DNA from: Desulfoluna spongiiphila
GTDB lineage: Bacteria; Desulfobacterota; Desulfobacteria; Desulfobacterales; Desulfolunaceae
Assembly (NCBI RefSeq): GCF_900101345.1
Contig: NZ_FMUX01000010.1
Span: forward strand, 1 to 64,000
Reading direction: 5' to 3'
DNA length: 64,000 nucleotides
Notes under the pieces: model-generated
Told to the model about the DNA's origin: nothing
Databases searched by the model: none
What the model saw: only the letters and a program-made list of their open reading frames with translations
Position numbers and translations under genes: made by a program
In this document: in pieces, positions 1-58,952 of the stretch
Position numbering within the stretch: the stretch's first letter is position 1
Layout: each line of letters opens with the position of its first letter

Positions 1-89
1 CCCGGCAGGGCCGCCGGAGGCTTCTTTAAGACCTGTTTGTTAAACTTTTCAAAAGTTTAGCCCCCGGCAGGGCCGCCGGAGGCTTCTTT
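1..89 (+). repeat. Dispersed intergenic repeat, right-end modules in tandem
   Basis: Two copies of the right terminus GGCCGCCGGAGGC lie about 60 bases apart. Between them is the AAACTTTTCAAAAGTTT hairpin module that recurs through the window. The left part of the element is cut off by the window edge. Confidence 0.75.
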
Positions 90-2415: not shown

Positions 2416-2434
2416 GTCTTGTACCGATTCAAAT

Positions 2435-2714
2435 TGCCTCCGGCGGCCCTGCCGGGGGCCAAACGTTTAAAAAGTTTCACAAACAGCTTTTAAGCAAGCC
2501 TTTCCAGGATCCGCCGAAACAATGTCGCCTTTTTCCATTAGGAAAGTTTTTTGCGGAGCTTTTTTTTAAAAAAAGCGACCCGCCGGAGGCAAGCTGAACA
2601 GTCACCATCCCCATTGCATTTCATTTTAAAGGGGACTGTGATTTGACCCGAGGAACGAGGGGCAAATCACAGTCGCAACCCGCTTTCAAGGTGGCACACC
2701 CTGCCGCCGGAGGC
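2435..2714 (-). repeat. Dispersed intergenic repeat, two adjoining elements
   Basis: The first element (2435-2592) starts GCCTCCGGCGG and ends CCGCCGGAGGC. It contains the AAGTTT hairpin and the GGAAAGTTTTTTGCGGAGC / AAAAAGCGACC module. The second (about 2636-2714) carries the GAGGAACGAGGGG and TTTCAAGGTGGCACACC modules and again ends GCCGCCGGAGGC. Both are in reverse orientation relative to the copy at 12619. This fills the gap between the tRNA terminator and the efflux operon. Confidence 0.85.
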
Positions 2715-11095: not shown

Positions 11096-11266
11096 GCCTC
11101 CGGCGGCCCTGCCGGAAGCCAACCCTTTTAAAATTTTAACAAACAGACATTGAATGCCATATTGGTTCATTCAAGTGTACTCGTATTTCGATTGATCTCG
11201 CCTGATGTGCAAGGCAACCGAAAAGTTTTTGCGGAGCTTTTTTCAAAAAAGCGACCCGCCGGAGGC
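11096..11266 (-). repeat. Dispersed intergenic repeat
   Basis: It starts TGCCTCCGGCGGCCCTGCCGG and ends CGCCGGAGGC, and includes the AAATTTTAACAAACAG segment and the GTTTTTGCGGAGC / CAAAAAAGCGACCC module near the right end. The middle (about 11140-11215) is AT-richer and diverges from other copies. A degraded fragment (AAGGTGGCCTACCTTGCCTCCGG, in two parts) follows at about 11483-11506. Confidence 0.75.
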
Positions 11267-11438
11267 AACTTGCAGTTAAATACGTTTGCCCTGCCCCGTC
11301 CCCCATTCCCCCTTGATATTTCTATCCGCCAAAGATAAGAGTTTAACGTTACACGGCATGATTGATACATTTCACACCCCACTACCAGGGCCCATGCAAA
11401 AAACAAACATACGAATTCCATAAGAATGCCGCTGTGAG

Positions 11439-11461
11439 TTAACCCCAGAAGCGGGGGTTAA
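11439..11461 (+). promoter_or_regulatory. Hairpin upstream of the tungstate transporter
   Basis: TTAACCCC and GGGGTTAA form an 8-bp perfect stem with a seven-base loop, about 105 bases before the wtpA start. It may be an operator or a leader hairpin. It is not a recognisable Moco riboswitch. Confidence 0.35.
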
Positions 11462-11565
11462 ATCGCTGCGGCAACCAGCTGTGAAGGTGGCCTACCTTGC
11501 CTCCGGAGACATCGATTTCTGTATGTTTTTTTTTACGCCAGCCCCTCACATGGAGACACCCACCC

Positions 11566-12537: not shown

Positions 12538-12618
12538 GGCAACACATGCAACTTGCCTTCTATGGTTAAAGTCGGATGAACCACAGGGTCAAGAGGGTTC
12601 AGGAAAAAACAAAAAGAT

Positions 12619-12788
12619 GCCTCCGGCGGCGAGGTGTGCCACCTCGAAAGCAGGTTGCGAACGCGATTTGCCCTTCGTTCCTCAGGGAAAATCACATTCG
12701 CTATTGATTCAGATGATACTGAATCTGTTTTTAAAACCTGTTTATCAAACTTTTCAAAAGTTTGGCCCCCGGCAGGGCCGCCGGAGGC
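12619..12788 (+). repeat. Dispersed intergenic repeat, near-complete reference copy
   Basis: This 170-base copy shows all modules in order: terminus GCCTCCGGCGGC, hairpin AGGTGTGCCACCT, the TTCGTTCCTCAGGGAAAATC segment (first 20 bases), AAACTTTTCAAAAGTTT, and terminus GCCGCCGGAGGC. The termini are exact inverted repeats of 12 bp. A further conserved segment resembling CTTCTATGGTTAAAGTC lies to its left (about 12556). Confidence 0.9.
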
Positions 12789-12802
12789 ATCTTTAACTTG
12801 GT

Positions 12803-12962
12803 TGTCTCCGGCGGCAAGGTTTGCCACATTGAAAGCAGGTTGTGAATGCGTTTGTCCCCTCGTTCCTCGGGGAAAATCCCATCCGCATTTAATCCAGGTT
12901 GGTCTGAAACTGTTTGCCAAAACCTGTTTGTTAAACTTTTTAAAAGTTTAGCCGCCGGAGGC
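12803..12962 (+). repeat. Dispersed intergenic repeat, second tandem copy
   Basis: This is a second copy in the same orientation, 14 bases after the first. It begins TCTCCGGCGGCAAGG and ends GCCGCCGGAGGC. Together the two fill the wtpA-wtpB gap, so the operon is interrupted by about 350 bases of repeat. Confidence 0.88.
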
Positions 12963-13001
12963 TATGTCGAGCTGAACAGCCACAATAAAAAGGCGATTTT
13001 C

Positions 13002-14527: not shown

Positions 14528-14570
14528 CGCCTCCGGCGGCAAGGTGAGCCACCTTGAAAGCTTATTTCCG
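14528..14570 (+). repeat. Dispersed intergenic repeat, left-end fragment
   Basis: GCGCCTCCGGCGGC is followed by the hairpin AAGGTGAGCCACCTT. The rest is missing, but the flanking segment TTAACCATAGAAGGC at 14578 recurs next to other copies. Confidence 0.7.
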
Positions 14571-14641
14571 CAACGCTTTAACCATAGAAGGCTGCTTTTC
14601 CACCGACGTCATCCTCGAATGACATGCTTAACAGTCACTGT

Positions 14642-18311: not shown

Positions 18312-18453
18312 GCCTCCGGCGGCGAAGGCGCTTTCCCCCTCGTTCCTTGGGGAAAATCACATTCGCCTTTGATTTTGGATGGCCTGAATCTGTTTTTAAA
18401 CCCGCTTTTCATCAATCAGGCAAACGTTTATCCCCGGCAAGGCCGCCGGAGGC
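18312..18453 (+). repeat. Dispersed intergenic repeat
   Basis: It begins GCCTCCGGCGGCGAAGG and ends GGCCGCCGGAGGC. The AAGGTG hairpin is shortened, while TTCCTTGGGGAAAATCACA and the AAACGTTTA region are present. The left flank (about 18250-18311) matches the flank of the 12619 copy. Confidence 0.85.
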
Positions 18454-18756: not shown

Positions 18757-21510
18757 ATGAACGGATTGAAACGATTCCTGATCAACGCGGCCATTATCCA
18801 CGCCAAAAGGGTGGCCCTGCTCATCCTGGCAGCCACCCTTGCGGCGGCGGCCTTTTTCCCCCGGGTGGTCATGGACACCGACCCGGAAAACATGCTGAAG
18901 ACCACCGAGCCGGCGCGTCTTTTCAACGATGAGACAAAAAAAAACTTCACCCTGAGTGAAATCGTCATCGTGGGCATCGTCAACGAAGAAGACCCCGACG
19001 GCGTCTTCAACCCCGAAACCCTGTCCAAGATCCATACCCTCACCCGGTTCGCTTCCACCCTCAGGTGGCCCGATGCATCGGACCCGTCAAAAACCCACGG
19101 AGTCATCGCCGCCGAGGTTGTGGCTCCCTCCCTGGTGGATCACATGAGCCAGGACGCACCGGGCTCCCTTCGCTTTGACTGGTTGATGCCCGAGCCCCCC
19201 AAGACCCGGGAAGCAGCGCGGAGCATCCGGGACAAGGCCCTTTCCAACCCCCTCATCAAGGGCCGCATGGTCTCTGAAGACGGACGCGCCGTCAGCCTCT
19301 ACCTGCCCCTCACCGAAAAACTCATCAGCTACAAGGTCTACACGGCGCTCCGGGAAAAAATCGCCGAGCTCAACACCTCCCCGCAGGGCGATGTCTTCCA
19401 CATCACCGGCCTGCCTGTGGCTGAGGGTGCCGTGGGCGTTGAGATGTTCACCCAGATGAGCACGGCCTCCCCCCTTGCCATGGTGGTCATCCTGGGCCTT
19501 CTGGCCCTTTTCTTCCGGAAATGGGAGCTCATCATCCTTCCCATGATCATCGCCACCGTCTCCATTGTCATCACCATGGGCCTGATGATCGGCGCAGGGT
19601 ATCCCGTCCATATCCTGAGCTCCATGCTGCCCATCTTCCTGATGTCCATTGCCATGGTGGACTCGGTGCACGTGTTGTCCGAATTCTTCGACACGTACAC
19701 CCCCAGGGCCGGCCGGGCCGACACCATCCGTTCCGTCATGGAGACCCTGTTTGCCCCCATGCTCTACACGTCCCTCACCACGGCAGCCGGATTTTTGTCC
19801 CTGACCCTGGCGCCCATCCCCCCTGCAAAGGTCTTCGGCGGATTTCTCTGCATCGGGGTGATGGTGGCCTGGCTGCTCACGGTCCTCTTTGTCCCGGCCT
19901 ACGTCATGATGATCCCGGAAAGACGCCTTGAATCCTTCGGCCACAGACACCAGTCCGGCCAGAAGGTTAAGGGACTGGCACGCCTCCTTTCGGCCCTGGG
20001 CCGCTTCACCTTTGCCCACGCCAAGGTCATCCTGGCCGGTTTCTGCCTGGTGGTGGCCATTTCCATCTGGGGCATCACCCGCATCCAGGTCAACGACAAC
20101 TACGCCAAACGATTCGACACCAGCCACCCCATCCGCCAGGCGGACACCGCCTTGAACCGTCACTTTTCGGGCACCTACACCGCCTACCTGGTTCTGAGCA
20201 ACACCCGGGACGAGGTTCTCAACCAGCAGGATATCCAGGAGCTGATGCGCCGGTTGGCCCACTTTGCCGATGCACACGAGAATCCCCTTGTCCGATCCCT
20301 GGCAACCCAGATGGGGCCGAAACTCTCGGCATTGGGTCATGGGGGTCCGTCCGCCACCGAGCTGGCCGAGGGCATCGCCCAATCCATCGAGAAGGCATCG
20401 TCCACCGCCGATGACGCCCAATACGATGCCTGGCTCGACATCCAGACCTTTCTCGAAGTCGAACTCCAGAACCACGCCATTTTCAAACGGCCGGACCTCC
20501 TGGCCTATGTGGCGAACCTCCAGGCCGCCATGGACGCTGAACCGTATATCGGAAAAACGGAGTCTGCCGCCGACGTGGTCCGCAAGGTCAACCAGGAGCT
20601 CACCACCGGCAAACCAGAGGACTTCACCCTCCCGGACAGCCTTCCCAAGGTGGCCGAATGCTACCTGCAATTCCAGCAGAGCCATCGGCCCAACGACCTG
20701 TGGCACCTGGTCACACCGGACTACAAAAACGCCATCATCAACCTGCACTTCAACTGCGGGGACAGCATGGCAACCCGCAAAGCCGTGGAGGCGGTCAACG
20801 CCTACACAGCCATCCATCCGCCCCCCGTGCCCCTCTCCTTTAAATGGGCCGGCCTGCACTACATCAACCGCGTCCTGGAGATCAAGCTGGTGGGGGGCTT
20901 CCTTCGCTCCTTTGCCGGCAGTTTTCTCATGGTGCTGATCATGATGGCCGTTCTCTTCCGGTCCCCCTTGTGGGCAATGCTCTGCATGGTCCCGCTGGCC
21001 ATTACCCTGCCCCTGATCTACGGCGCCACCGGCCTGATGGGCAAAGACTACGACCTGCCCATTGCCGTGATGAGTGCCCTGTCCATCGGCATGGCCGTGG
21101 ACTTTGCCATCCATTTCCTGGAACGCAGCCGAAAGGCCGTGGCCCTCACCGGCAGCTGGGAGTCGGCCCTGCCCATGGTCTTCGGCGAACCCGCCCGGGC
21201 CATCAGCCGCAACGTCCTGGTCGTCGCCTTCGGCTTTTTGCCCCTGCTCGTGGCCTCCCTGGTGCCCTACAAAACCACCGGAGCCATGCTCTTTGCCATC
21301 ATGGCAGCCTCGGGCCTCATCACCCTGGTGGTCCTGCCTGCGATCCTCACCGTCTGGGAAAACCGATTCTTCCCCGAAAAAAAACCGCGCCTCCGGCGGC
21401 CAGGGGATGATCCCCTGGACCCCAGATTCGCAAATGCTCCCGGCCTTCGTTCCTCAGGCCGATCACATTCGCAGACGGGCTTTGCCCGCAGACAACAAGA
21501 AAGGCTCTAA
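18757..21510 (+). CDS. RND/MMPL-family transporter with repeat-derived C-terminus
   Basis: The 917-residue inner-membrane transporter has two repeated units, each a periplasmic domain followed by about six helices (about residues 230-400 and 710-875). Motifs include FLMSIAMVDSVHVLSEFFDTY and SALSIGMAVDFAIHFLERS, the sterol-sensing-like part of MMPL proteins. It belongs with the next two genes in a set often seen in proteobacteria and thought to move lipids or hydrophobic molecules between membranes. ATG 18757 follows GGAG. The membrane domain ends near NRFFPEKK; the last 35-40 residues are translated from a copy of the dispersed repeat. Confidence 0.9.
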   Translation: MNGLKRFLINAAIIHAKRVALLILAATLAAAAFFPRVVMDTDPENMLKTTEPARLFNDETKKNFTLSEIVIVGIVNEEDPDGVFNPETLSKIHTLTRFASTLRWPDASDPSKTHGVIAAEVVAPSLVDHMSQDAPGSLRFDWLMPEPPKTREAARSIRDKALSNPLIKGRMVSEDGRAVSLYLPLTEKLISYKVYTALREKIAELNTSPQGDVFHITGLPVAEGAVGVEMFTQMSTASPLAMVVILGLLALFFRKWELIILPMIIATVSIVITMGLMIGAGYPVHILSSMLPIFLMSIAMVDSVHVLSEFFDTYTPRAGRADTIRSVMETLFAPMLYTSLTTAAGFLSLTLAPIPPAKVFGGFLCIGVMVAWLLTVLFVPAYVMMIPERRLESFGHRHQSGQKVKGLARLLSALGRFTFAHAKVILAGFCLVVAISIWGITRIQVNDNYAKRFDTSHPIRQADTALNRHFSGTYTAYLVLSNTRDEVLNQQDIQELMRRLAHFADAHENPLVRSLATQMGPKLSALGHGGPSATELAEGIAQSIEKASSTADDAQYDAWLDIQTFLEVELQNHAIFKRPDLLAYVANLQAAMDAEPYIGKTESAADVVRKVNQELTTGKPEDFTLPDSLPKVAECYLQFQQSHRPNDLWHLVTPDYKNAIINLHFNCGDSMATRKAVEAVNAYTAIHPPPVPLSFKWAGLHYINRVLEIKLVGGFLRSFAGSFLMVLIMMAVLFRSPLWAMLCMVPLAITLPLIYGATGLMGKDYDLPIAVMSALSIGMAVDFAIHFLERSRKAVALTGSWESALPMVFGEPARAISRNVLVVAFGFLPLLVASLVPYKTTGAMLFAIMAASGLITLVVLPAILTVWENRFFPEKKPRLRRPGDDPLDPRFANAPGLRSSGRSHSQTGFARRQQERL
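21388..21476 (+). repeat. Dispersed repeat inside the 3' end of the RND gene
   Basis: GCCTCCGGCGGCCAGGGGATG is followed by a CAGGGGATGATCCCCTG hairpin and TTCGTTCCTCAGGCCGATCA, matching the variant at 48540-48592. The gene's reading frame continues through it. Its right-end module is missing. Confidence 0.85.
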
Positions 21511-21598: not shown

Positions 21599-21722
21599 CC
21601 TCCGGCGGGTCGCTTTTTCAATGAATACAGCGTTAAAGGCAAATGTGATTTTCCCTGAGGAACGAAGGGGAAAGCGCATTTACAACCTGCTTTCAAGGTG
21701 GCACACCTTGCCGCCGGAGGCT
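21599..21722 (-). repeat. Dispersed intergenic repeat
   Basis: It begins CCTCCGGCGGGTCGC and ends TTGCCGCCGGAGGC, with TGAGGAACGAAGGGGAAAGCG and AAGGTGGCACACCTT in between. It separates the RND gene from the LolA-like gene. Confidence 0.85.
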
Positions 21723-23928: not shown

Positions 23929-24101
23929 GCCTCCGGCGGCAAGGTGTGCCACCTTGAAAGCAAGTTGCGAATGCGCTTTCCCCTTCGTTCCTCGGGGAAA
24001 ATCACATTCGCCTTTCATTCAGAGTATGTTGAGAAAATCTTGTCAGACATCTGTTTGTCAAACTTTTCGAAAGTTTGGCCCCCGGCAGGACCGCCGGAGG
24101 C
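23929..24101 (+). repeat. Dispersed intergenic repeat, near-complete copy
   Basis: It starts GCCTCCGGCGGCAAGGTGTG and ends GACCGCCGGAGGC. All four hairpin modules are present. It lies between the convergent outer-membrane and LysR genes. Confidence 0.9.
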
Positions 24102-24138
24102 TCTGTCCTTATGATGAGCTGAATGGTTACAAAAGGAA

Positions 24139-26086: not shown

Positions 26087-26094
26087 TCACATCC

Positions 26095-26121
26095 GGGGCG
26101 TTCTTCCTGAAAGAACGCCCC
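26095..26121 (+). terminator. Strong hairpin after the Ni-SOD gene
   Basis: GGGGCGTTCTT and AAGAACGCCCC form an 11-bp perfect stem with a five-base loop, nine bases after the stop codon. No T-run follows, so termination is likely but not certain. Confidence 0.55.
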
Positions 26122-26257
26122 CCTGCCCCATGCGGTCGCCTGAAAAGCAGGCGCACGCCCATCGATCTTATCAATCCATCCCCGAAAACCATCGATATTA
26201 CCAATTTGACCCATGTATTGCCGGATTATATAAAATCGTTTCTGAAGGCATACCGAC

Positions 26258-26316
26258 CGTTTAAAACCTGTTTGTCAAATTTTTCAAAAACTTGACCCCG
26301 GGCAGGGCTGCCGAAG
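26258..26316 (+). repeat. Dispersed intergenic repeat, degraded right-end fragment
   Basis: It shows AAACCTGTTTGTCAAA, a mutated AAATTTTTCAAAAACTT hairpin, and CCCGGGCAGGGCTGCCGAAGGC (in two parts), a worn form of the right terminus. Confidence 0.65.
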
Positions 26317-26372
26317 GCTTTTTTTAACTGAGTGTTTGCTTCTTTTATTTTATCACCAAACCAGGATACTCG

Positions 26373-27239
26373 ATGCAGCGACCAGGCAAGTGCACCACAC
26401 ACACCGTAGAGGCTGAGACCATCCACGACCAGGGAACCGGCGCCATGAACGAAGACGCCGTGCGGGTCAACGGCACCCTCTTCGGGGTCTTTGACGGCGC
26501 CACGAGCCTTAACGGAAAAACCTTCGACAGCGGCGCGACCGGGGGATACCTGGCCGCCACCACCGCCGGCGACATCTTTAGCAGAAACGACGGGCCCCTG
26601 ATGGACCTGGCCCACAGGGCCAACGCCGCCATTCGCTGCATGATGCTTGAAAACGGAGTGGATGTGACCTGTAAAGAGAACCTCTGGAGCACCAGCGCAG
26701 CCGTGGGCAGAATCGAAGGAGACAGATTCCACTGGGTTCAATCCGGGGACAGCCCCATCCTGGCAATCTATGAAGACGGCTCCTGCGACCTGCTGGCCAC
26801 GGGGGACGACCACGACCTGGAGACCCTGAAGCTGTGGAAAGAAACCGCAGCCAGCCGGACCGGTTCCATCCTGGATGAGCTCAAGGACCAGATACGCAAG
26901 GTGCGCTCCGGCATGAACATCACCTACGGGGTCATGAACGGCGAGGCACAGGCCATGGACTTTCTCAACCACGGCAGTGTGAGCCTTGAAGGCATCAAGC
27001 ACATCCTCCTGTTCACCGACGGCCTGTTCATCCCCCGGGAAGACCCCGAGGCAGGCATGGATTTTAAAACGCTGGTCTCTCTCTTCCTGGCCGGAGGCCT
27101 ACAGGCCGTAAAGCACCATGTACGGTCCGTGGAACACACCGACCCCGGGTGCCGAAGGTACCCCAGGTTCAAAACCCATGACGACATGGCGGCCATCGCC
27201 CTCTCCTTTTCCTCAACTGGGCGACGTGCCGCCGCCTGA
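26373..27239 (+). CDS. PP2C-type protein phosphatase
   Basis: The 288-residue soluble protein matches the PP2C/SpoIIE-like fold. Metal-binding motifs are MNEDAVRVNG and FGVFDGATSLNG near the N-terminus. WVQSGDSPILAIYEDG and LLFTDGLFIPRED follow, and the last is in HDDMAAIALSF. It probably dephosphorylates Ser/Thr on an unidentified partner. No kinase or anti-sigma factor is adjacent. It starts at ATG after AGGATACTCG and is convergent with the glycosyltransferase. Confidence 0.85.
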   Translation: MQRPGKCTTHTVEAETIHDQGTGAMNEDAVRVNGTLFGVFDGATSLNGKTFDSGATGGYLAATTAGDIFSRNDGPLMDLAHRANAAIRCMMLENGVDVTCKENLWSTSAAVGRIEGDRFHWVQSGDSPILAIYEDGSCDLLATGDDHDLETLKLWKETAASRTGSILDELKDQIRKVRSGMNITYGVMNGEAQAMDFLNHGSVSLEGIKHILLFTDGLFIPREDPEAGMDFKTLVSLFLAGGLQAVKHHVRSVEHTDPGCRRYPRFKTHDDMAAIALSFSSTGRRAAA

Positions 27240-27250
27240 TCCCCAGACCG

Positions 27251-28516
27251 TCACCCCAAACGCATCCCGCCTGCACTGCCGCCACCGGCCTGTCCGCCTT
27301 CCGTCACCTTGTCATACACCCCTTGGATACGCTCAAAGACCCCTGCCCAGGTAAACGGGGCAAGGATCCTGCTGGCCGAGGCCACATCAATCTCCGGGCT
27401 ATCCATGGCCGAGAGAATCTGATCCTTAAGGGCCCCTGCCAGCATCACCTCCAGTTGGGGTTCATCGGCCCCATGGGGCTCGTCCGCCGATTTAAGGGAA
27501 GGCAGGTCCACGAGGCGGACACATCCCGCCGGAGCCTCTCCCAAGACCTCCCGTACCCCCGGCAGCGAGGTGGCCACGATGCGGCATCCCGAGGCAAGGG
27601 CTTCCAAAAGCACCAGGGGAAGGCCCTCAAAAAAAGAAGGGAGGACAAAAAGGTGGGATCGTGCCATCAAGGCCGCCAGGGCATCGTGATCGAGCATGCC
27701 GTGGAACACCACCCGCCCCTTCAAGGGTTCGGCCAGGTCCCGGCACAGGCCCAGTTCCGTGCCGGTGCTGCTGCCGGCCAGGTGAAGCCGCCAGGGAAGG
27801 TCCGTAAGCAAGGACAGGGCCCTCAAAAGCCAGGGCACCCCTTTGGCGCGGCTGAGTTTTCCCGCAAAGAGGATCTCCACGGGGGGTGGGGCGCTTTTCC
27901 CTGCCGGGGCAAAGCGCGCATCGTCGTAACCGCCCCCCACCACATGGATGCGCGCCCCAGGAATCCCATACACAGAGGCAATCTCCCGGGCCTGGGCGCG
28001 GGTCAGGGCCATGACGCCGTCGATACGGCTGCATGCAGGCTGCACCCGCTCCCCCAGGTGGGGGCACGTCTTGAACTGCCGGAGGTCGGTGCCGTGGCAG
28101 CTGGTGACCATGGGGATACCCGGAAAAAGCTCCCGCGCAAGGGCGCTCACCACCCAAAGGTGATGGCTGTGGATGAGATCCGGGGAAAAGGCCTCCACGG
28201 CCCGGGCCAGGGCCTCGGAAAAGGTGGTCTCATAGGCGTCCACCTCCCGGGGGCACAAGGCTGAAAACCGGCGGCTCCTGTAGGGCATCACATCGCTCAT
28301 CCCCACAACGGGAAACGGAAGATCGCCCCCCTCAAACCGGACAAAGGCACACTGCTTCGGGTCAATGCCCGCAAGCTCCGGCGCGTCTTTCTCAGGGATC
28401 CCGGAGAGAAAATAATTGTCATGCCCCCGCTTTTCGGCCTCGCGAATGACCGCCTGGACATACATCCCGCTACCGGTGAGCTCAGGGCGCTGACTGATCA
28501 GATGCAAAATTTTCAT
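27251..28516 (-). CDS. Family 4 glycosyltransferase
   Basis: The 421-residue GT-B enzyme has an N-terminal acceptor domain (LISQRPELTGSGMYVQ, DLIHSHHLWVVSALAREL, TSCHGTDLRQF). Its C-terminal nucleotide-sugar domain has ILFAGKLSRAKGVPWLLRAL, the donor-site motif PSFFEGLPLVLLEALASG, and TSLPGVREVL. It probably adds a sugar to a glycan or lipid. It is not in a polysaccharide cluster, so the acceptor is unknown. AAAGGGA precedes the ATG, and the stop is 11 bases from the convergent PP2C gene. Confidence 0.9.
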   Translation of the reverse strand: MKILHLISQRPELTGSGMYVQAVIREAEKRGHDNYFLSGIPEKDAPELAGIDPKQCAFVRFEGGDLPFPVVGMSDVMPYRSRRFSALCPREVDAYETTFSEALARAVEAFSPDLIHSHHLWVVSALARELFPGIPMVTSCHGTDLRQFKTCPHLGERVQPACSRIDGVMALTRAQAREIASVYGIPGARIHVVGGGYDDARFAPAGKSAPPPVEILFAGKLSRAKGVPWLLRALSLLTDLPWRLHLAGSSTGTELGLCRDLAEPLKGRVVFHGMLDHDALAALMARSHLFVLPSFFEGLPLVLLEALASGCRIVATSLPGVREVLGEAPAGCVRLVDLPSLKSADEPHGADEPQLEVMLAGALKDQILSAMDSPEIDVASASRILAPFTWAGVFERIQGVYDKVTEGGQAGGGSAGGMRLG

Positions 28517-28667
28517 GCGTCCCTTTCCATTTCAAAAACCCGATGACTCGGCTACATGTTTCCGATACCTTAAAAAAGCACACCCCGACACGGGGGGCAC
28601 GCTCCATAAGAGTCATACCCCGGGCCACCGGTTCAACGCCAGACCAATTCCAACGAAGGAGACACCA

Positions 28668-29270
28668 ATGACAGGCCATGGAAACACCGCATCACCCCAC
28701 CACGTCATCCAGCGCGGCGTTGACGGACAACCCCTCTTCTTCTCCGACGACGATTACGCCGACTACATCCGCATCATTGCCGAGGCCTGCAGGCAACGCA
28801 ACGTCCGCGTCTGGGGTTACTGCCTCATGCCCGACCACATCCACCTCATCGCCGTCACCGAAGAGCCCGCCACCCTCGACGCCTGCCTCCACGAGGCAAC
28901 CCTTGGCTACACCGCCTGCCTTGCCCAGCGAAACGCACCGGTCGTGCCCAGTTTCAAGGAGAGACCGGCACGGCACGCCCTTGACGAAACCTACCTGATC
29001 CGCTGCGCACGCTACGTGGAGATCAATCCCGTCAAACGCAACTACGTCCGTGTCCCCGAGGCATGGGCCTTCAGCAGCGCCGCCGCCCACATCAGCGGAA
29101 AAGACGACGCCCTGGTCACCGTGGCCCCGCTGCTGGATCGCGTCCGGAAAAACTGGTCTGACTTTCTCGCCACCCCCATCCCCAGCGAAGAGGCCGACCT
29201 CTTCTACGCCCACGAACAAAGCGGCAAGCCCATGGTTCGCAAGCCTTCCGATTCCACGTTGACGCAGTGA
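28668..29270 (+). CDS. REP-associated tyrosine transposase (RAYT, Y1/IS200-like)
   Basis: The 200-residue protein belongs to the Y1 HUH transposase superfamily. The HUH motif is in YCLMPDHIHLIAV (about residues 58-70). The probable catalytic Tyr is in EATLGYTACLAQRN (about residue 94), and ARYVEINPVKRNYV is the usual downstream motif. AAGGAG precedes the ATG. RAYTs are single-copy domesticated transposases linked to REP palindromes. Two copies of the dispersed repeat lie just downstream (29308 and 29499), so it is the natural candidate for spreading the family. No IS ends are visible. Confidence 0.88.
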   Translation: MTGHGNTASPHHVIQRGVDGQPLFFSDDDYADYIRIIAEACRQRNVRVWGYCLMPDHIHLIAVTEEPATLDACLHEATLGYTACLAQRNAPVVPSFKERPARHALDETYLIRCARYVEINPVKRNYVRVPEAWAFSSAAAHISGKDDALVTVAPLLDRVRKNWSDFLATPIPSEEADLFYAHEQSGKPMVRKPSDSTLTQ

Positions 29271-29307
29271 ACATGTTTTAAATTTAAAAGGGAAAAACGA
29301 AAGCAAT

Positions 29308-29340
29308 GCCTCCGGTGGCAAGGTGCGGGCACCTTGAAAC
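29308..29340 (+). repeat. Dispersed repeat, left-end fragment beside RAYT
   Basis: GCCTCCGGTGGCAAGGTGCGG is followed by GCACCTTGAAA, 37 bases after the RAYT stop codon. Confidence 0.75.
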
Positions 29341-29498
29341 CCTATGGCGAATGCATGAAGGCAACTATTATGCGATCGTTCTCGGGGCATTCGCGTGATG
29401 TATGGCATGTTGCAACTGTTTTTGCAGGAGAGGCCCATTTCACCCTTCTGGAAACACGATGAAGGGCGTTTGGGATTCGCTTGACTTTAACCAGAATA

Positions 29499-29683
29499 GC
29501 TCCGGCGGCAAGGTGTGCCACCTTGAAAGCAAATGGCGAATGCGCTTTCCCCTTCGCTCCTCAGGGAAAATCACATTCGCTATCGATTTTGATTGCTCTG
29601 AACCTGTTTTTTAAAGCCTGTTTAGTAAACCCGTCGATCTAAGATCAGGCAAAAGTTTAGCCCCCGGCAGGGCCGCCGGAGGC
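29499..29683 (+). repeat. Dispersed repeat, full copy beside RAYT
   Basis: It starts GCTCCGGCGGCAAGG and ends GGCCGCCGGAGGC, 185 bases with every module and a small insertion (GTCGATCTAAGATCAGG) in place of the AAACTTTTC arm. With the fragment at 29308 it fills most of the 467-base gap. Confidence 0.88.
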
Positions 29684-29737
29684 ACGTTTTCCCCCACATG
29701 AACCATAGAAACCCGGGAGCAGTCGCGCACCGGAGGG

Positions 29738-39028: not shown

Positions 39029-39090
39029 AACTCCATTCAGTTACGACGCACACAAGAAAACACATGCGCACGCCACGAAAAAGTACCGCT

Positions 39091-39168
39091 GCGATTTGGC
39101 CCGAGGAACAAGGGGTAAGGCGCTACGGCCACCCCCTGTATGGATGGCCCACCTTGCCGCCGGGGGCA
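39091..39168 (-). repeat. Dispersed intergenic repeat, worn copy
   Basis: It shows GATTTGGCCCGAGGAACAAGG and CCCACCTTGCCGCCGGGGGC, recognisable forms of two modules and the terminus. Confidence 0.65.
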
Positions 39169-41136: not shown

Positions 41137-41914
41137 AGCGTCCTCCCGATCAAAACCCGGCTGCCGAATCACCTGGAACACACAAAAACAAATCTCAGGG
41201 CAACACGCGGAAGGCACGGGCACCGCCAAAAAACTGCGGCACCGTGGACCGAATTCATGGAATCAATAATGATGGGGATACCCCGGAGCCTGTGAAGACC
41301 ACAACGATCCGGGATGGAAGGCAAGCAGGACAAAGCGGAGGGAACCAACGGCAGGAAACGAAGGCAATGGATATAATGGGGTAACGATAAGTGACTAACG
41401 GTGAAAAAATCCTGTAAGCCTGACAATGATTTATCTTCTCTGATATCGCGCGATATGTCAACAATAACCCATTGTCATTGCAAGAAATACCAACACACCA
41501 ACCGCCTTCTTTACTGGCAGTTTCACTATGCAATGCGAAACGTCCCTTCGCGGAGAAACAGTCCCCACCGCAATCTCCGGTATCGCGGCAACCGTGCCCC
41601 CGACAGCCGCTCTTTACACGACCCCAATAACCTGTTAAAAATAAATACGTTACCACAAACCCACGTGAATGGATTTCATTTTAGGGGCGGATGTGATGTT
41701 CCCCCAGGAACGAGGGGAAAACGCATTCGCAACCTGCTTTCAAGGTGGCAGACCTTGACGCCGTCAGCTTTTTAAGGGCTGCGTCTCCAGGCGGCCACGT
41801 TCCGTCCGTTTTTTGCCAGAGCCTTTTCACCCATAAACATCCCAAGGCACCATCCGGCAGCCCCCCAGGCGCTGTGATGCCGAATGTACACCACCAACAA
41901 ACCCGGGGCTCGTC
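41137..41914. other. Gap of 778 bases; AT-rich part with a palindrome and a repeat copy
   Basis: No gene is supported. The stretch from about 41260 to 41680 is distinctly more AT-rich than its surroundings. It holds the perfect 14-bp palindrome ATATCGCGCGATAT at 41443-41456. A copy of the dispersed repeat follows at 41686-41767. Confidence 0.5.
41686..41767 (-). repeat. Dispersed intergenic repeat, partial copy
   Basis: It contains CCAGGAACGAGGGGAAAACGC, CGCAACCTGCTTTCAAGGTGG and ACCTTGACGCCGTCAGC, the last a mutated right terminus. Confidence 0.75.
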
Positions 41915-45392: not shown

Positions 45393-48218
45393 ATGTCTGA
45401 CGGCACCATTGTGATCAACGGCAACAGCCACCCCTTCAAACCCGGCCAGACCATCCTCGAGGCGGCGGAAGATGCGGGAATTCCCATTCCCACCCTCTGC
45501 CATTTAAAAGGCGCCACCCCCACCGGAGCCTGTCGCCTCTGCGTGGTGGAGGTCGCGGGAGCCAGGAACCTTTTGGCCTCCTGTTCCACTCCGGCAGAGG
45601 CCGGAATGGAGATCCAGACCGAATCCCCGACGGTCGTCCGGTCGCGGAAAATGACCCTTGAACTCCTCCTCTCATCGGGGAACCATGACTGCATCGACGA
45701 CGGCTCCGTCAAAGACCCCAAGGCCCTTTTCGACGCCAGGGCCGAGGCCGACGGACACTCCGAGCACCTCTGCCCCTCCTGGGGGGATTGCAAGCTTCAG
45801 GAATACGCCCTTGAATACGGGGCCACGGGAACCGCCTACCCGAAAACCCCGCCCCTTTACCCGCCGGAACTCAAGAACCCGCTGATTATCCGTGATTTTT
45901 CCCGGTGCATTCTCTGCGGGCGTTGCGTGCAGGCCTGCAACGAGGTTCAGGTCAACGAAGCCATCAGCCATGGTTACCGTGGCGCAGAGAGCAAAATCGT
46001 CGCCCTGGGCGACCTGCCCCTGTCCGAATCCTCCTGTGTCTTCTGCGGGGAGTGCATCCAGGCCTGCCCCACCGGGGCCCTGGTGGAAAAGAAAGCCAAG
46101 GGCATCTGGCGGCCCTGGGACGTGGAGACCATCCGCACCACCTGCCCCTACTGCGGGGTGGGGTGCCAGCAGACCCTCCATGTCAAGGAGGGAAAAATCG
46201 TCAAGGTCACCGGCGACGAAGAGGCCCTTCCCAACAAGGGCCGCCTCTGCGTGAAAGGGCGTTTCGGCTACGACTTCATCTACTCGGAGGAGCGGCTTAA
46301 AACGCCCCTCATACGGGAAGACGGGGAACTCCGGGAGGCCTCCTGGGACGAAGCCCTGGACCTTGTTGCCGACAAACTCAAAACCATCATCGGCGAAAGC
46401 GGTGCCGACGCCGTGGCCGGTGTCAGCTGCGCACGAAGCATCAACGAAGACTCCTATCAGATGCAAAAACTCTTCCGGGGGGTGTTCAAGACAAACAACA
46501 TAGACCATTGCGCCCGCACCTGACATGCCCCCACCGTCGCCGGTCTGGCGACAAGCTTTGGTTCCGGTGCCATGACCAACTCCTTCGGGGAGTTTGATCG
46601 CGCCAAGATGTTCTTCGTCATCGGCTCCAACATGACAGAGGCCCACCCCGTGGCGTCCACCTTTCTTAAAAACGCCGTTAAAAAAGGGGCAAAGCTCATC
46701 GTGGCCGACCCGCGGCGCCACAAACTGGTGGATTACGCGGACCTTCACCTTCAGCTCAAGGTGGGCAGCGACATCGCCCTTTTGAACGCCCTGATGCATG
46801 TGATCATCGAAGAAGAGCTCTTCGATCCCGCCTTTGTCGCGGAAAACACCGAAGGGTTCGAGGCCCTGTCTACGGAGGTCTCCAAGGCCACCCCCGAGGC
46901 CATGGCCCCCATCTGCGGCATTGAGGCCGATACCATCCGACACGCCGCCCGCATGCTCGCCTCGGTGCGCCCGGCCATGCTCTGCTACACCCTGGGCATC
47001 ACTGAGCACACCTGCGGGAAAAACAACGTCATGTCCGTGGCCAACCTCCAGATGCTCCTGGGGAACATGGGCGTGGAGTGCGGGGGGGTCAACCCCCTGC
47101 GCGGCCAGAACAACGTCCAGGGCGCCTGCGACATGGGCGCGCTTCCCGGGGTCTTCCACGGGTACCAGAAGGTCACCGATCCTGCGGCCCGTGAAAAGTT
47201 CGAGAAAGCCTGGGGCGTCACGGACCTTCCCGCCACCCCGGGCCTCATGATCCCCCACATGATGGAAGGCCTTGAAGACAAAAAAGTCCGGGCCTTCTGG
47301 ATCTTCGGAGAAAACCTGGCCAACACCGAGCCGGATATCCGAAAAGTCGAGCATGAGCTCGCCGCAGCCGAATTTCTCATCTGCCAGGATATCTTCCTCA
47401 ACGAAACCACCGAGTTCGCCGATGTGGTCCTTCCGGCTGCCGCCTGGAGCGAGAACGACGGCACCTTCACCAACAGCGAGCGCCGGGTCAGCCGCGTCCG
47501 CACCGCCTCCACCCCGCCCGGTGAAGCCCGGCCCAACTGGTGGATCTTCCGAGAGATCGCCAAGCGCTTCGGCCAGGAGTGGCCGTCGGTGAGCGCCCAG
47601 GAGATCTGGGACAACGAGATCGCGGCCCTTGCCCCCAACTTCAAGGGGATCACCTACAACCGCATCGAAGGCGACGGGCTCCAGTGGCCCTGCCCGGATG
47701 CCACCCACCCCGGCACCGCCTTCCTCCACAAAGACGGACGGTTCACCCACGGCAAAGGGATCTTCAACCCCACGGCCTGGACCCCGCCCGCCGAGGTAAC
47801 CGACGAGGCCTACCCCTTTGTCCTCAGCACCGGACGGCGGCTCTACCACTACCACACCCGCACCCAGACCGGCCGATGCGACGGTCTCAACGACCTGTTG
47901 GGCGAAGAGACCTGCGACATCTCCCCGGTTGACGCCAGGCGCCTGGGCATCCGACAGGCAGAGCCCGTCCGGGTCTCCTCCAAGCGCGGAGCCGTCACGG
48001 TGAAGGCCCGGATAACCCATGAAATCCCCGAAGGCATGATCTGGATGGCCTTCCACTTCCGGGAGGGCAACGCCAACTGGCTCACCAACCCGGCCTACGA
48101 CCCGGAAACCCTCACCGCCGAATACAAAGCCTGTGCGGTCCAGGTGGAGAAGGTCACAGCCCCTGTTGAAGGGACGGCCGAAACCACGGAAAGCCTCACG
48201 GCCGCGGCCGGTTCCTGA
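45393..48218 (+). CDS. fdhA: Selenocysteine formate dehydrogenase, NAD-linked type, catalytic subunit
   Basis: The gene is one 941-residue frame with an in-frame TGA at 46521-46523 (residue 377) read as selenocysteine in DHCART-U-HAPTVAGL. The N-terminal [2Fe-2S] domain has Cys at 36, 47, 50 and 64, followed by EHLCPSWGDCKLQ, two [4Fe-4S] motifs (CILCGRCVQAC near 172, CVFCGECIQACP near 215) and the Mo/W-bis-PGD domain starting TCPYCGVGC near 249. This NuoG-like front end is typical of enzymes that hand electrons to a NADH or ferredoxin module, but no such subunit gene is adjacent. GGAGG at 45380 precedes the ATG. Confidence 0.95.
46521..46552 (+). promoter_or_regulatory. Selenocysteine UGA and bacterial SECIS hairpin
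   Basis: After TGA (46521-46523), GTCGCC (46536-46541) pairs perfectly with GGCGAC (46547-46552) around the loop GGTCT. The apical GGUCU and 12-base spacing match the SelB-binding SECIS of fdhF. Confidence 0.95.
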
Positions 48219-48296: not shown

Positions 48297-48404
48297 GCCT
48301 CCGGCGGCCCTGCCGGGGGCTAAACTTTTAAAAAGTTTAACAAACAGGCTTTAAATACAAATTCGCAACTTGCTTTCGAGGTGGCACACCTCGCCGCCGG
48401 AGGC
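48297..48404 (-). repeat. Dispersed repeat, short complete copy
   Basis: It starts GCCTCCGGCGGCCCTGCCGG and ends CGCCGCCGGAGGC, only 108 bases. It lacks the GAACGAAGGGG hairpin module but keeps AAACTTTTAAAAAGTTT and GAGGTGGCACACCTC, which shows that the elements lose modules cleanly. Confidence 0.88.
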
Positions 48405-48409
48405 AACCC

Positions 48410-48592
48410 GGTTAAAGGTGCCTTCGTTGACCCTGCCGAGGGCCAGACTTTTGCCTGATTTATATAAACCGGTTTTAAAAACAGATTCAATTCAACCTGA
48501 TTCAAAGGCGAATGTGATTTTCCCTGAGGAACGAAGGGGAAAGCGCATTCGCAACCTGGGGTCCAGGGGATCATTCCCTGGCCGCCGGAGGC
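48410..48592 (-). repeat. Dispersed repeat, variant copy
   Basis: The right part has GAGGAACGAAGGGGAAAGCG, then the CAGGGGATCATTCCCTG variant hairpin also seen inside the RND gene, and ends GGCCGCCGGAGGC. The left terminus is mutated. Confidence 0.82.
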
Positions 48593-54337: not shown

Positions 54338-54683
54338 CGAGACACAGCTTTCGGGAATGCGGCGCCTTTCTCCGGGGCATCAAGGGGAAGACGCGTTGGT
54401 TAGGGGCATGGGAACCATGAAGATATCGCTTAAAGTCAGCCCGGTGAGGGGCTGTTGACGGCACACGCGTTTTTGATGGGTTCAAGGGGTGCGACGGGCA
54501 ATGGAGAAGAGGCAAAAACGGTAGAATAAACGGTTGCCCATGGCATGGGACAGACCCACATCGTGTCTGACAGAGTACACCAGGCAAAAACAATGTGTCA
54601 ACCAAAGGAACCAAATCAAACCAGATGGTGGGGCTCCTTCTGAATAAAGCCTTCCATGGTCAGAGTGTAAGGATTCAGTTTAT

Positions 54684-54855
54684 GCCTCCGGCGGCCCTGC
54701 CGGGGGCTAAACTTTTAAAAAGTTTAACAAACAGGCCGTAAAAAAACTGCTTGAATGAATTTCGTTTTATAGGCGGATGTGATTTGACCCGGGGGACGAG
54801 GGCGAAAGCGAAGCGACAAACAGCTTTCAAGGTGGCTCACCTCGCCTCCGGAGGC
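54684..54855 (-). repeat. Dispersed intergenic repeat, near-complete copy
   Basis: It starts GCCTCCGGCGGCCCTGCCGG and ends TCGCCTCCGGAGGC. It lies between apbE and nqrA. The right flank ends AGCATAGAAGGCATC, as at other copies. The rest of the 583-base gap (54338-54683) shows no gene; the nqr promoter should be there. Confidence 0.87.
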
Positions 54856-58770: not shown

Positions 58771-58879
58771 AAAGGTCTTAAGCAAAACGTTCCAGGCTCC
58801 GCCGAAACAGTGTCGACTGTTTCAAAATCAGGAAAGTTTTTTGCGGAGCTTTTTTTCAAAAAAGCGACCTGCCGGAGGC
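58771..58879 (-). repeat. Dispersed repeat (poly-T module type) inside the nik operon
   Basis: It has CTCCGCCGAAACAGTGTCGAC, AAAGTTTTTTGCGGAGC, CAAAAAAGCGACC and the terminus TGCCGGAGGC, as in the copy at 2500-2592. It lies between nikQ and nikO. Confidence 0.8.
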
Positions 58880-58952
58880 AGGCTTTTCCATGCACTTTAA
58901 CCATAAAAAGGCTTTGCTTTTTGTGCATTTATTTTTTTTTCTGCAGCCTAAC

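Follow-up and report, generated by a model that had tools for sequence, protein, structure and literature searches.

The window, the whole 64,000-nt stretch analysed here from the genome of the marine sulfate reducer Desulfoluna spongiiphila, carries a family of hairpin-rich repeats in its intergenic regions. Profile searches detected 21 type-1 and 15 overlapping type-2 matches on both strands, in agreement with the many copies of the original prediction, and its second type, in which a GCGGAGC module occurs with poly-T/poly-A, proved to be real. The copy singled out at 12619–12788 is exactly 170 nt long and runs from GCCTCCGGCGGC to GCCGCCGGAGGC, and the short version at 48297–48404 has the claimed length of 108 nt. 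Copies are present at the sites that had been listed, those at 21599 and 58771 being partial only, and about 12% of core ends have the flank TTAACCATAGAAGGC, said to be shared by many copies, no more than 85 nt away. An Rfam search of the window gave no match overlapping a core at E ≤ 1. The sequences GCCTCCGGCGGC and GCCGCCGGAGGC had been taken for the termini of the element; they bound only its core, and the terminal inverted repeats (TIRs) lie outside GCCTCCGGCGGC. The window contains the following features:

22..83 (+): core right-end module
2421..2605 (−): type-2 element (nhmmer E 2e-50)
2607..2714 (−): type-1 core, left part (E 5e-26)
11096..11266 (−): type-2 core
11409..11508 (−): type-1 core, partial
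12555..12571 (+): outer shell module GCCTTCTATGGTTAAAG
12619..12788 (+): full type-1 core, 170 nt (nhmmer E 5e-53), with a predicted cloverleaf fold
12789–12803: recurrent 15-nt linker ATCTTTAACTTGGTT joining tandem cores
12804..12962 (+): second type-1 core, degenerate, in tandem with the 12619 copy
12970..12983 (−): right TIR, eroded, AGCTGAACAGCCAC (11/14), after the tandem pair
14529..14584 (+): left end and first hairpin only
18312..18453 (+): type-1 core without hairpin 1
21389..21473 (+): type-1 variant with CCAGGGG...CCCCTGG as hairpin 1
21616..21721 (−): type-1 core, partial
23929..24101 (+): full type-1 core, 173 nt
24117..24130 (−): right TIR AGCTGAATGGTTAC (13/14) belonging to the 23929 copy
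26255..26318 (+): right-end module, degenerate
28515..29270 (+): Y1_Tnp/RAYT-like ORF (251 aa) with an HIH motif; examined as a driver, unsupported
29308..29389 (+): start of a third variant (about 200 nt in all)
29498..29683 (+): type-1 core with a long alternative loop (CCCGTCGATCTAAGATCAGG)
39081..39167 (−): type-1 core, partial
41633..41763 (−): type-1 core, partial
48297..48404 (−): 108-nt core without hairpin 2
48420..48592 (−): type-1 core with the CCAGGGG hairpin
54667..54855 (−): full type-1 core (54684–54855) preceded by an eroded TIR, GTAAGGATTCAGTT (11/14)
58773..58884 (−): type-2 element, partial

The TIRs within the window are eroded (e.g., at 12970–12983 and 24117–24130). In the type-2 element at 2421–2605 this applies to both ends, which read GTACCGATTCAAAT (10/14) at 2421–2434 and AGCTGAACAGTCAC (12/14) at 2592–2605; the collinear site of D. 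butyratoxydans lacks this element. The third interior, GAATGCATGAAGGC...GAGAGGCCCATTTCA, occupies about 200 nt at 29284–29497 and has many copies in D. butyratoxydans at 79–87% identity.

A 3.65-kb segment (26087–29737), comprising a glycosyltransferase gene, the Y1 gene and repeats, has no counterpart at the collinear locus of D. butyratoxydans, in which its flanks lie 12 bp apart. The Y1_Tnp-like group of the D. spongiiphila genome comprises about 12 divergent loci of about 320 aa (e.g., C16:88794, C22:62292, and C15:33661). A SECIS_3 match at 46518–46576, below the gathering threshold (38.9 bits vs. 63), lies between two ORFs that jointly resemble the formate dehydrogenase alpha chain, and probably form one selenoprotein gene in which a TGA is read through.

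Abundance and Host Range

Counts were obtained from genome searches and from stretches of 624 kb of D. spongiiphila (G000, the genome of the window), 400 kb of D. limicola ASN36 (G001) and 240 kb of D. butyratoxydans MSL71 (G005). The genome-wide search for further copies, called for in the original prediction, detected the 25-mer of the right core end (up to 2 mismatches) 532 times in D. spongiiphila, with 260 and 272 occurrences on the two strands and none for a reversed control pattern. Five congeners contain 498, 322, 257, 174, and 33 occurrences of the same 25-mer, the count of 322 being that of D. butyratoxydans, and two sister genera contain 45 and 42. The 25-mer was found once each in two genomes of other families (G053 and G020) and was absent from all 394 other genomes drawn from the phylum.

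The 624 kb of D. spongiiphila contain 211 core ends (up to 1 mismatch), compared to about 1.4 expected per motif in random sequence. Type-1 profile matches alone make up 15.4 kb of this sample (about 2.5%) and 16.8 kb of the 400 kb of D. limicola (about 4%). Approximately 40% of the assessable clusters have no counterpart at the collinear position in the other species (16 of 38, and 9 of 25 in the reverse comparison).

Terminal Inverted Repeats and Target-Site Duplications

Target-site duplications (TSDs) directly at the core ends were not found above chance, and the search was therefore moved outward, to the outer TIRs. Tabulation of the flanks of complete cores revealed recurrent GTAACTATTCAGCT and AGCTGAATAGTTAC outside GCCTCC and GGAGGC. 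The intact unit is 190–245 bp long, carries the 14-bp TIRs GTAACTATTCAGCT...AGCTGAATAGTTAC and is flanked by an 8-bp target duplication. Such units are too short for a transposase gene. Identical ends are used by type-1 and type-2 interiors.

Among 19 D. butyratoxydans elements (191–245 bp), chosen solely by two exact TIRs, the TSD matches at 8 of 8 positions in 13 and at 7 of 8 in four, so that 17 of the 19 reach at least 7/8. In an independent 1.26-Mb sample, 6 of 31 TIR pairs have a direct repeat of at least 7/8, compared to 0.17 expected from shuffled flanks. A nested insertion in D. butyratoxydans (C6:384267–384460) lies inside a type-2 module and duplicates AAAAGCTC; its flanks, joined with one copy of AAAAGCTC, correspond to an uninterrupted D. 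limicola module at 50 of 50 nt. Comparison of orthologous empty sites with D. spongiiphila gave no base-exact reading, the intergenic flanks being too divergent between the species.

A TIR remnant is present within 30 nt of 14–17% of core ends, compared to about 0.1% for shuffled TIRs, while no TIR is recognisable at about 85% of the ends. Not all copies are thus bounded by TIRs, and membership in the MITEs is claimed for the intact copies only. These are short non-coding units with 14-bp TIRs and 8-bp TSDs, with a nested insertion for which a paralogous empty site exists and with species-specific presence, and for them the MITE suggested in the original prediction was the right guess. A 1,686-bp TIR pair in D. 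limicola (L262), considered as an autonomous element, was rejected, with no transposase-like ORF seen and no TSD.

Core Architecture and Predicted Fold

The cores, whose inverted ends are GC-rich, share a common frame, with GCCTCCGGCGG at the left end, CCTGTTTGT(C/T)AAACTTTT(C/T)AAAAGTTT(G/A)GCCCCCGGCAGGGCCGCCGGAGGC at the right end and interchangeable hairpins between them. Some cores form tandem pairs with a constant linker. At two places, L195:12801–12979 and around C13:88334–88604 of the D. spongiiphila genome, the left TIR lies inside a core, and the D. butyratoxydans site orthologous to C13:88334 holds only GCCTCCGGCaggtccGCCGGAGGC, a minimal hairpin. These cases show nesting and collapse. 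Both the exchange of modules and the loss of a TIR would be accounted for by recombination between the right ends that the cores share.

Fold prediction for the single strand 12604–12800 gave −89 kcal/mol (z −9.1), with an 18-bp closing stem and several arms. When the structure was placed on 24 copies, pairing was retained in 89% of cells, compared to 35–50% when it was slid, and 17 pairs had changed on both sides, whereas shuffles gave 10.0 (0 of 500). Variation in the closing stem is too slight to be informative on covariation. The core is thus predicted to fold as a covarying cloverleaf. Copying during repair of the palindrome could mimic compensatory change, so that the covariation leaves an RNA function unproven.

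Many TIR-less cores of D. spongiiphila share 91–94% identity with the 12619 copy, a similarity that agrees poorly with insertions that are old and decayed. In the sister genera (G006 and G007) the elements consist of the core only, being symmetric, about 140 bp long and without TIR or visible TSD. Either conversion homogenises the cores after loss of the TIRs, or the core spreads by itself. It is possible, although we are inclined to doubt it, that two mobile layers exist: a REPIN-like core of the Desulfolunaceae, spread independently and without TSD by an enzyme of its own, may have been captured in Desulfoluna by a MITE with IS66 ends, providing two routes of spread. Similar GCCTCCGGCGGCCAGGGG hairpins occur in Desulfovibrio. 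In the core-only elements of G007 (L312–L322) and G006 (L323–L331) each arm holds two hairpins and the middle varies, and several of these elements are located close upstream of apparent start codons.

Gene Context

The original prediction that the repeats fill the intergenic regions holds as regards their intergenic position, but not all gaps are occupied. In the sampled 624 kb of D. spongiiphila, the share of gaps holding a core was 64% for convergent, 32% for tandem, and 7% for divergent gene pairs, these percentages being approximate, as the gene map comes from a simple ORF caller. The same order, convergent above tandem above divergent, was observed in D. limicola and D. butyratoxydans, and the difference between convergent and divergent gaps is significant both in D. 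spongiiphila (p = 6e-10) and in the pooled data (p = 2e-13). Cores are thus located mainly at the 3′ ends of genes and avoid divergent promoters. In tandem gaps both orientations are equally frequent (90 vs. 95), with no strand preference. This context fits insertion followed by selection against promoter disruption, with no sign of a strand-specific role.

The tandem core pair (within 12540–12970) separates a gene for an SBP_bac_11 binding protein, of tungstate/molybdate type by similarity, from an ABC permease gene, and the corresponding D. butyratoxydans gap also holds a core end. A comparable placement is that of the REP between malE and malF.

Origin of the Ends

Elements of the ISBst12 type in other Desulfobacterales are 1.6–1.8 kb long and comprise one ORF with a DDE_Tnp_IS66 match. 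They end in GTAACTATTCAGC(A/C) or close variants (individually GTAACTATTCAGCA, GTAACTATTCAGCC, GTAACCATTCAGCG or GTAACTACTCAGGC) and are flanked by perfect 8-bp TSDs. The Desulfoluna TIR is identical at 13 of 14 positions to the TIRs of L303 and L304, and the ends of L300 and L301 are similar. For ISDge4, an ISBst12-group element that transposes actively, TIRs reading GTGACTACTCAGCA/GTAACTGCTCAGCA and a repeat of 8 bp are described (PMC12898284). The Desulfoluna units resemble the IS66 family/ISBst12 group (ISDge4; PMC12898284) in their 14-bp TIR of the GTAACTATTCAGC type and 8-bp TSD. Unlike the ISBst12 insertion sequences, they have no transposase gene, are only 190–245 bp long and contain a palindromic core that is, as far as seen, unrelated to the IS interior. 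The similarity of the ends suggests movement by an ISBst12 transposase.

A search for PF03050 (DDE_Tnp_IS66) revealed no match in D. spongiiphila or D. butyratoxydans, and D. limicola contains only a 74-position DDE_Tnp_IS66 fragment, located beside an end reading GTAACTACTCACAC. With no IS66 transposase found in the first two genomes, the family looks like an orphan MITE. Two intact IS66 elements of the genome G004 were rejected as a partner, their TIR being different (GTAAGCGTTCACG).

Proposed Mechanism and Alternative Explanations

We consider it probable that the family is an orphan MITE, whose units were mobilised in trans by an IS66-type enzyme and then shaped by nesting, recombination into a mosaic and purging from promoters. 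An IS66-family transposase, provided in trans by an IS that has since been lost or was passing through, would have cut out and inserted the units, and copies would then have inserted into one another. Deletion or homologous recombination between shared modules may have swapped, added and removed modules, and the same events would often have removed a TIR, giving rise to the observed mosaic. Purifying selection would have cleared promoters and left copies at the 3′ ends of genes, where any effect of the hairpins is probably no more than that of incidental structures at the ends of transcripts.

The BIME-like system offered as another option in the original prediction would imply that a REP-associated tyrosine transposase mobilises the palindromic cores in single-stranded form, as in REP/BIME/REPIN repeats, for example the product of the Y1 ORF at 28515–29270. 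This ORF lies directly upstream of two copies, its product matches the model of REP-associated transposases below threshold (44 bits, cut-off 80), and a core end likewise follows the homologue in D. limicola; the core-only elements of G007, symmetric inverted pairs without visible TSD, are likewise REPIN-like. However, RAYT genes have been described as flanked in every case by two inverted REPs, one on either side, which is their defining feature (PMC2817692), whereas here the copies lie downstream of the Y1 ORF only. Most of the other PF01797 genes of D. spongiiphila, about a dozen, have no adjacent repeats, the 322 copies of D. butyratoxydans coexist with no close homologue of the window Y1 protein (best 25%), and the homologues in D. 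limicola and G003 are interrupted by a stop codon. In addition, the core ends are GCCTCCGGCGGC, the tabulated flanks lack the GTAG/CGTC tag, the units measure 140–245 bp, no transposase gene has repeats on both sides, and the 8-bp TSD does not fit the REP/RAYT class. In the strict sense the repeats are thus not BIME or REP, and we regard this origin as unlikely.

Even less probable is that the repeats are not mobile as such, being bidirectional terminators or structures protecting RNA 3′ ends, selected and homogenised by gene conversion. Their bias toward gene 3′ ends, the very stable fold (−89 kcal/mol, z −9.1), the compensatory changes (17 pairs vs. 10.0), the A-rich and T-rich sequences beside the core stem and the position between the tungstate-type binding-protein gene and its permease gene would all agree with such a role. 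Mobility is, however, shown by the 8-bp TSDs, the nested insertion and the species-specific presence; tandem gaps reveal no strand preference, a simple terminator scan of about 10.9–14.7 kb found no excess (4 vs. 5.8 in shuffles), and palindrome correction is able to mimic compensatory change. That the copies are fragments of one tandem or segmental expansion, the case named in the original prediction as refuting it, can practically be dismissed: some cores do occur in tandem pairs with a constant linker, but the copies are dispersed over the whole genome, on both strands (260/272), and are flanked by 8-bp TSDs at unrelated sites.

Comparison with Known Systems

Short palindromic intergenic repeats that insert into one another and form RNA hairpins are known as BOX, RUP, and SPRITE in Streptococcus pneumoniae and as Correia elements in Neisseria. 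The Desulfoluna family is like them in all these properties and differs in its ends and hosts, in having two alternative interiors with one right-end module, and in the presence of the TIR-less core also in sister genera. With REP, BIME, and REPIN repeats and their RAYTs (PMC2817692, PMC3116915) it shares palindromic structure, hundreds of copies, location at gene 3′ ends and a mosaic character, but the Desulfoluna units are larger, have an 8-bp TSD, and lack the GTAG/CGTC tag and a repeat-bracketed transposase gene. A caution follows: hairpin families of REP-like appearance can turn out, once their true ends are found, to be cores of transposons with TIRs and TSDs.

The original prediction considered the system possibly new for the lineage. 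Among openly licensed PMC papers we found no publication on Desulfoluna repeats and none on MITEs of sulfate reducers matching this description, descriptions in other literature being possible. The repeats form a high-copy MITE family whose host genome yielded no transposase of the matching family, and we found no earlier account of it for the lineage. Its conserved ends point to a helper worth testing, and with its modular covarying cloverleaf and its present and absent states in different species the family lends itself to direct tests of growth through nesting and loss through recombination.

The Chunjie MITE of Geobacter uraniireducens is 178–235 bp long, has conserved TIRs and direct repeats, is intergenic and occurs in 38 full and 57 partial copies (review PMC10969869). 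The Desulfoluna family is similar in size, TIRs, direct repeats, intergenic location and the many partial copies without TIRs or repeats; unlike Chunjie, it has hundreds of copies; the likeness is one of description. In kind, the family is a MITE, with Chunjie of Geobacter being the closest in behaviour (PMC10969869), and it is set apart by its copy number, by its folded and modular core and by a missing helper.
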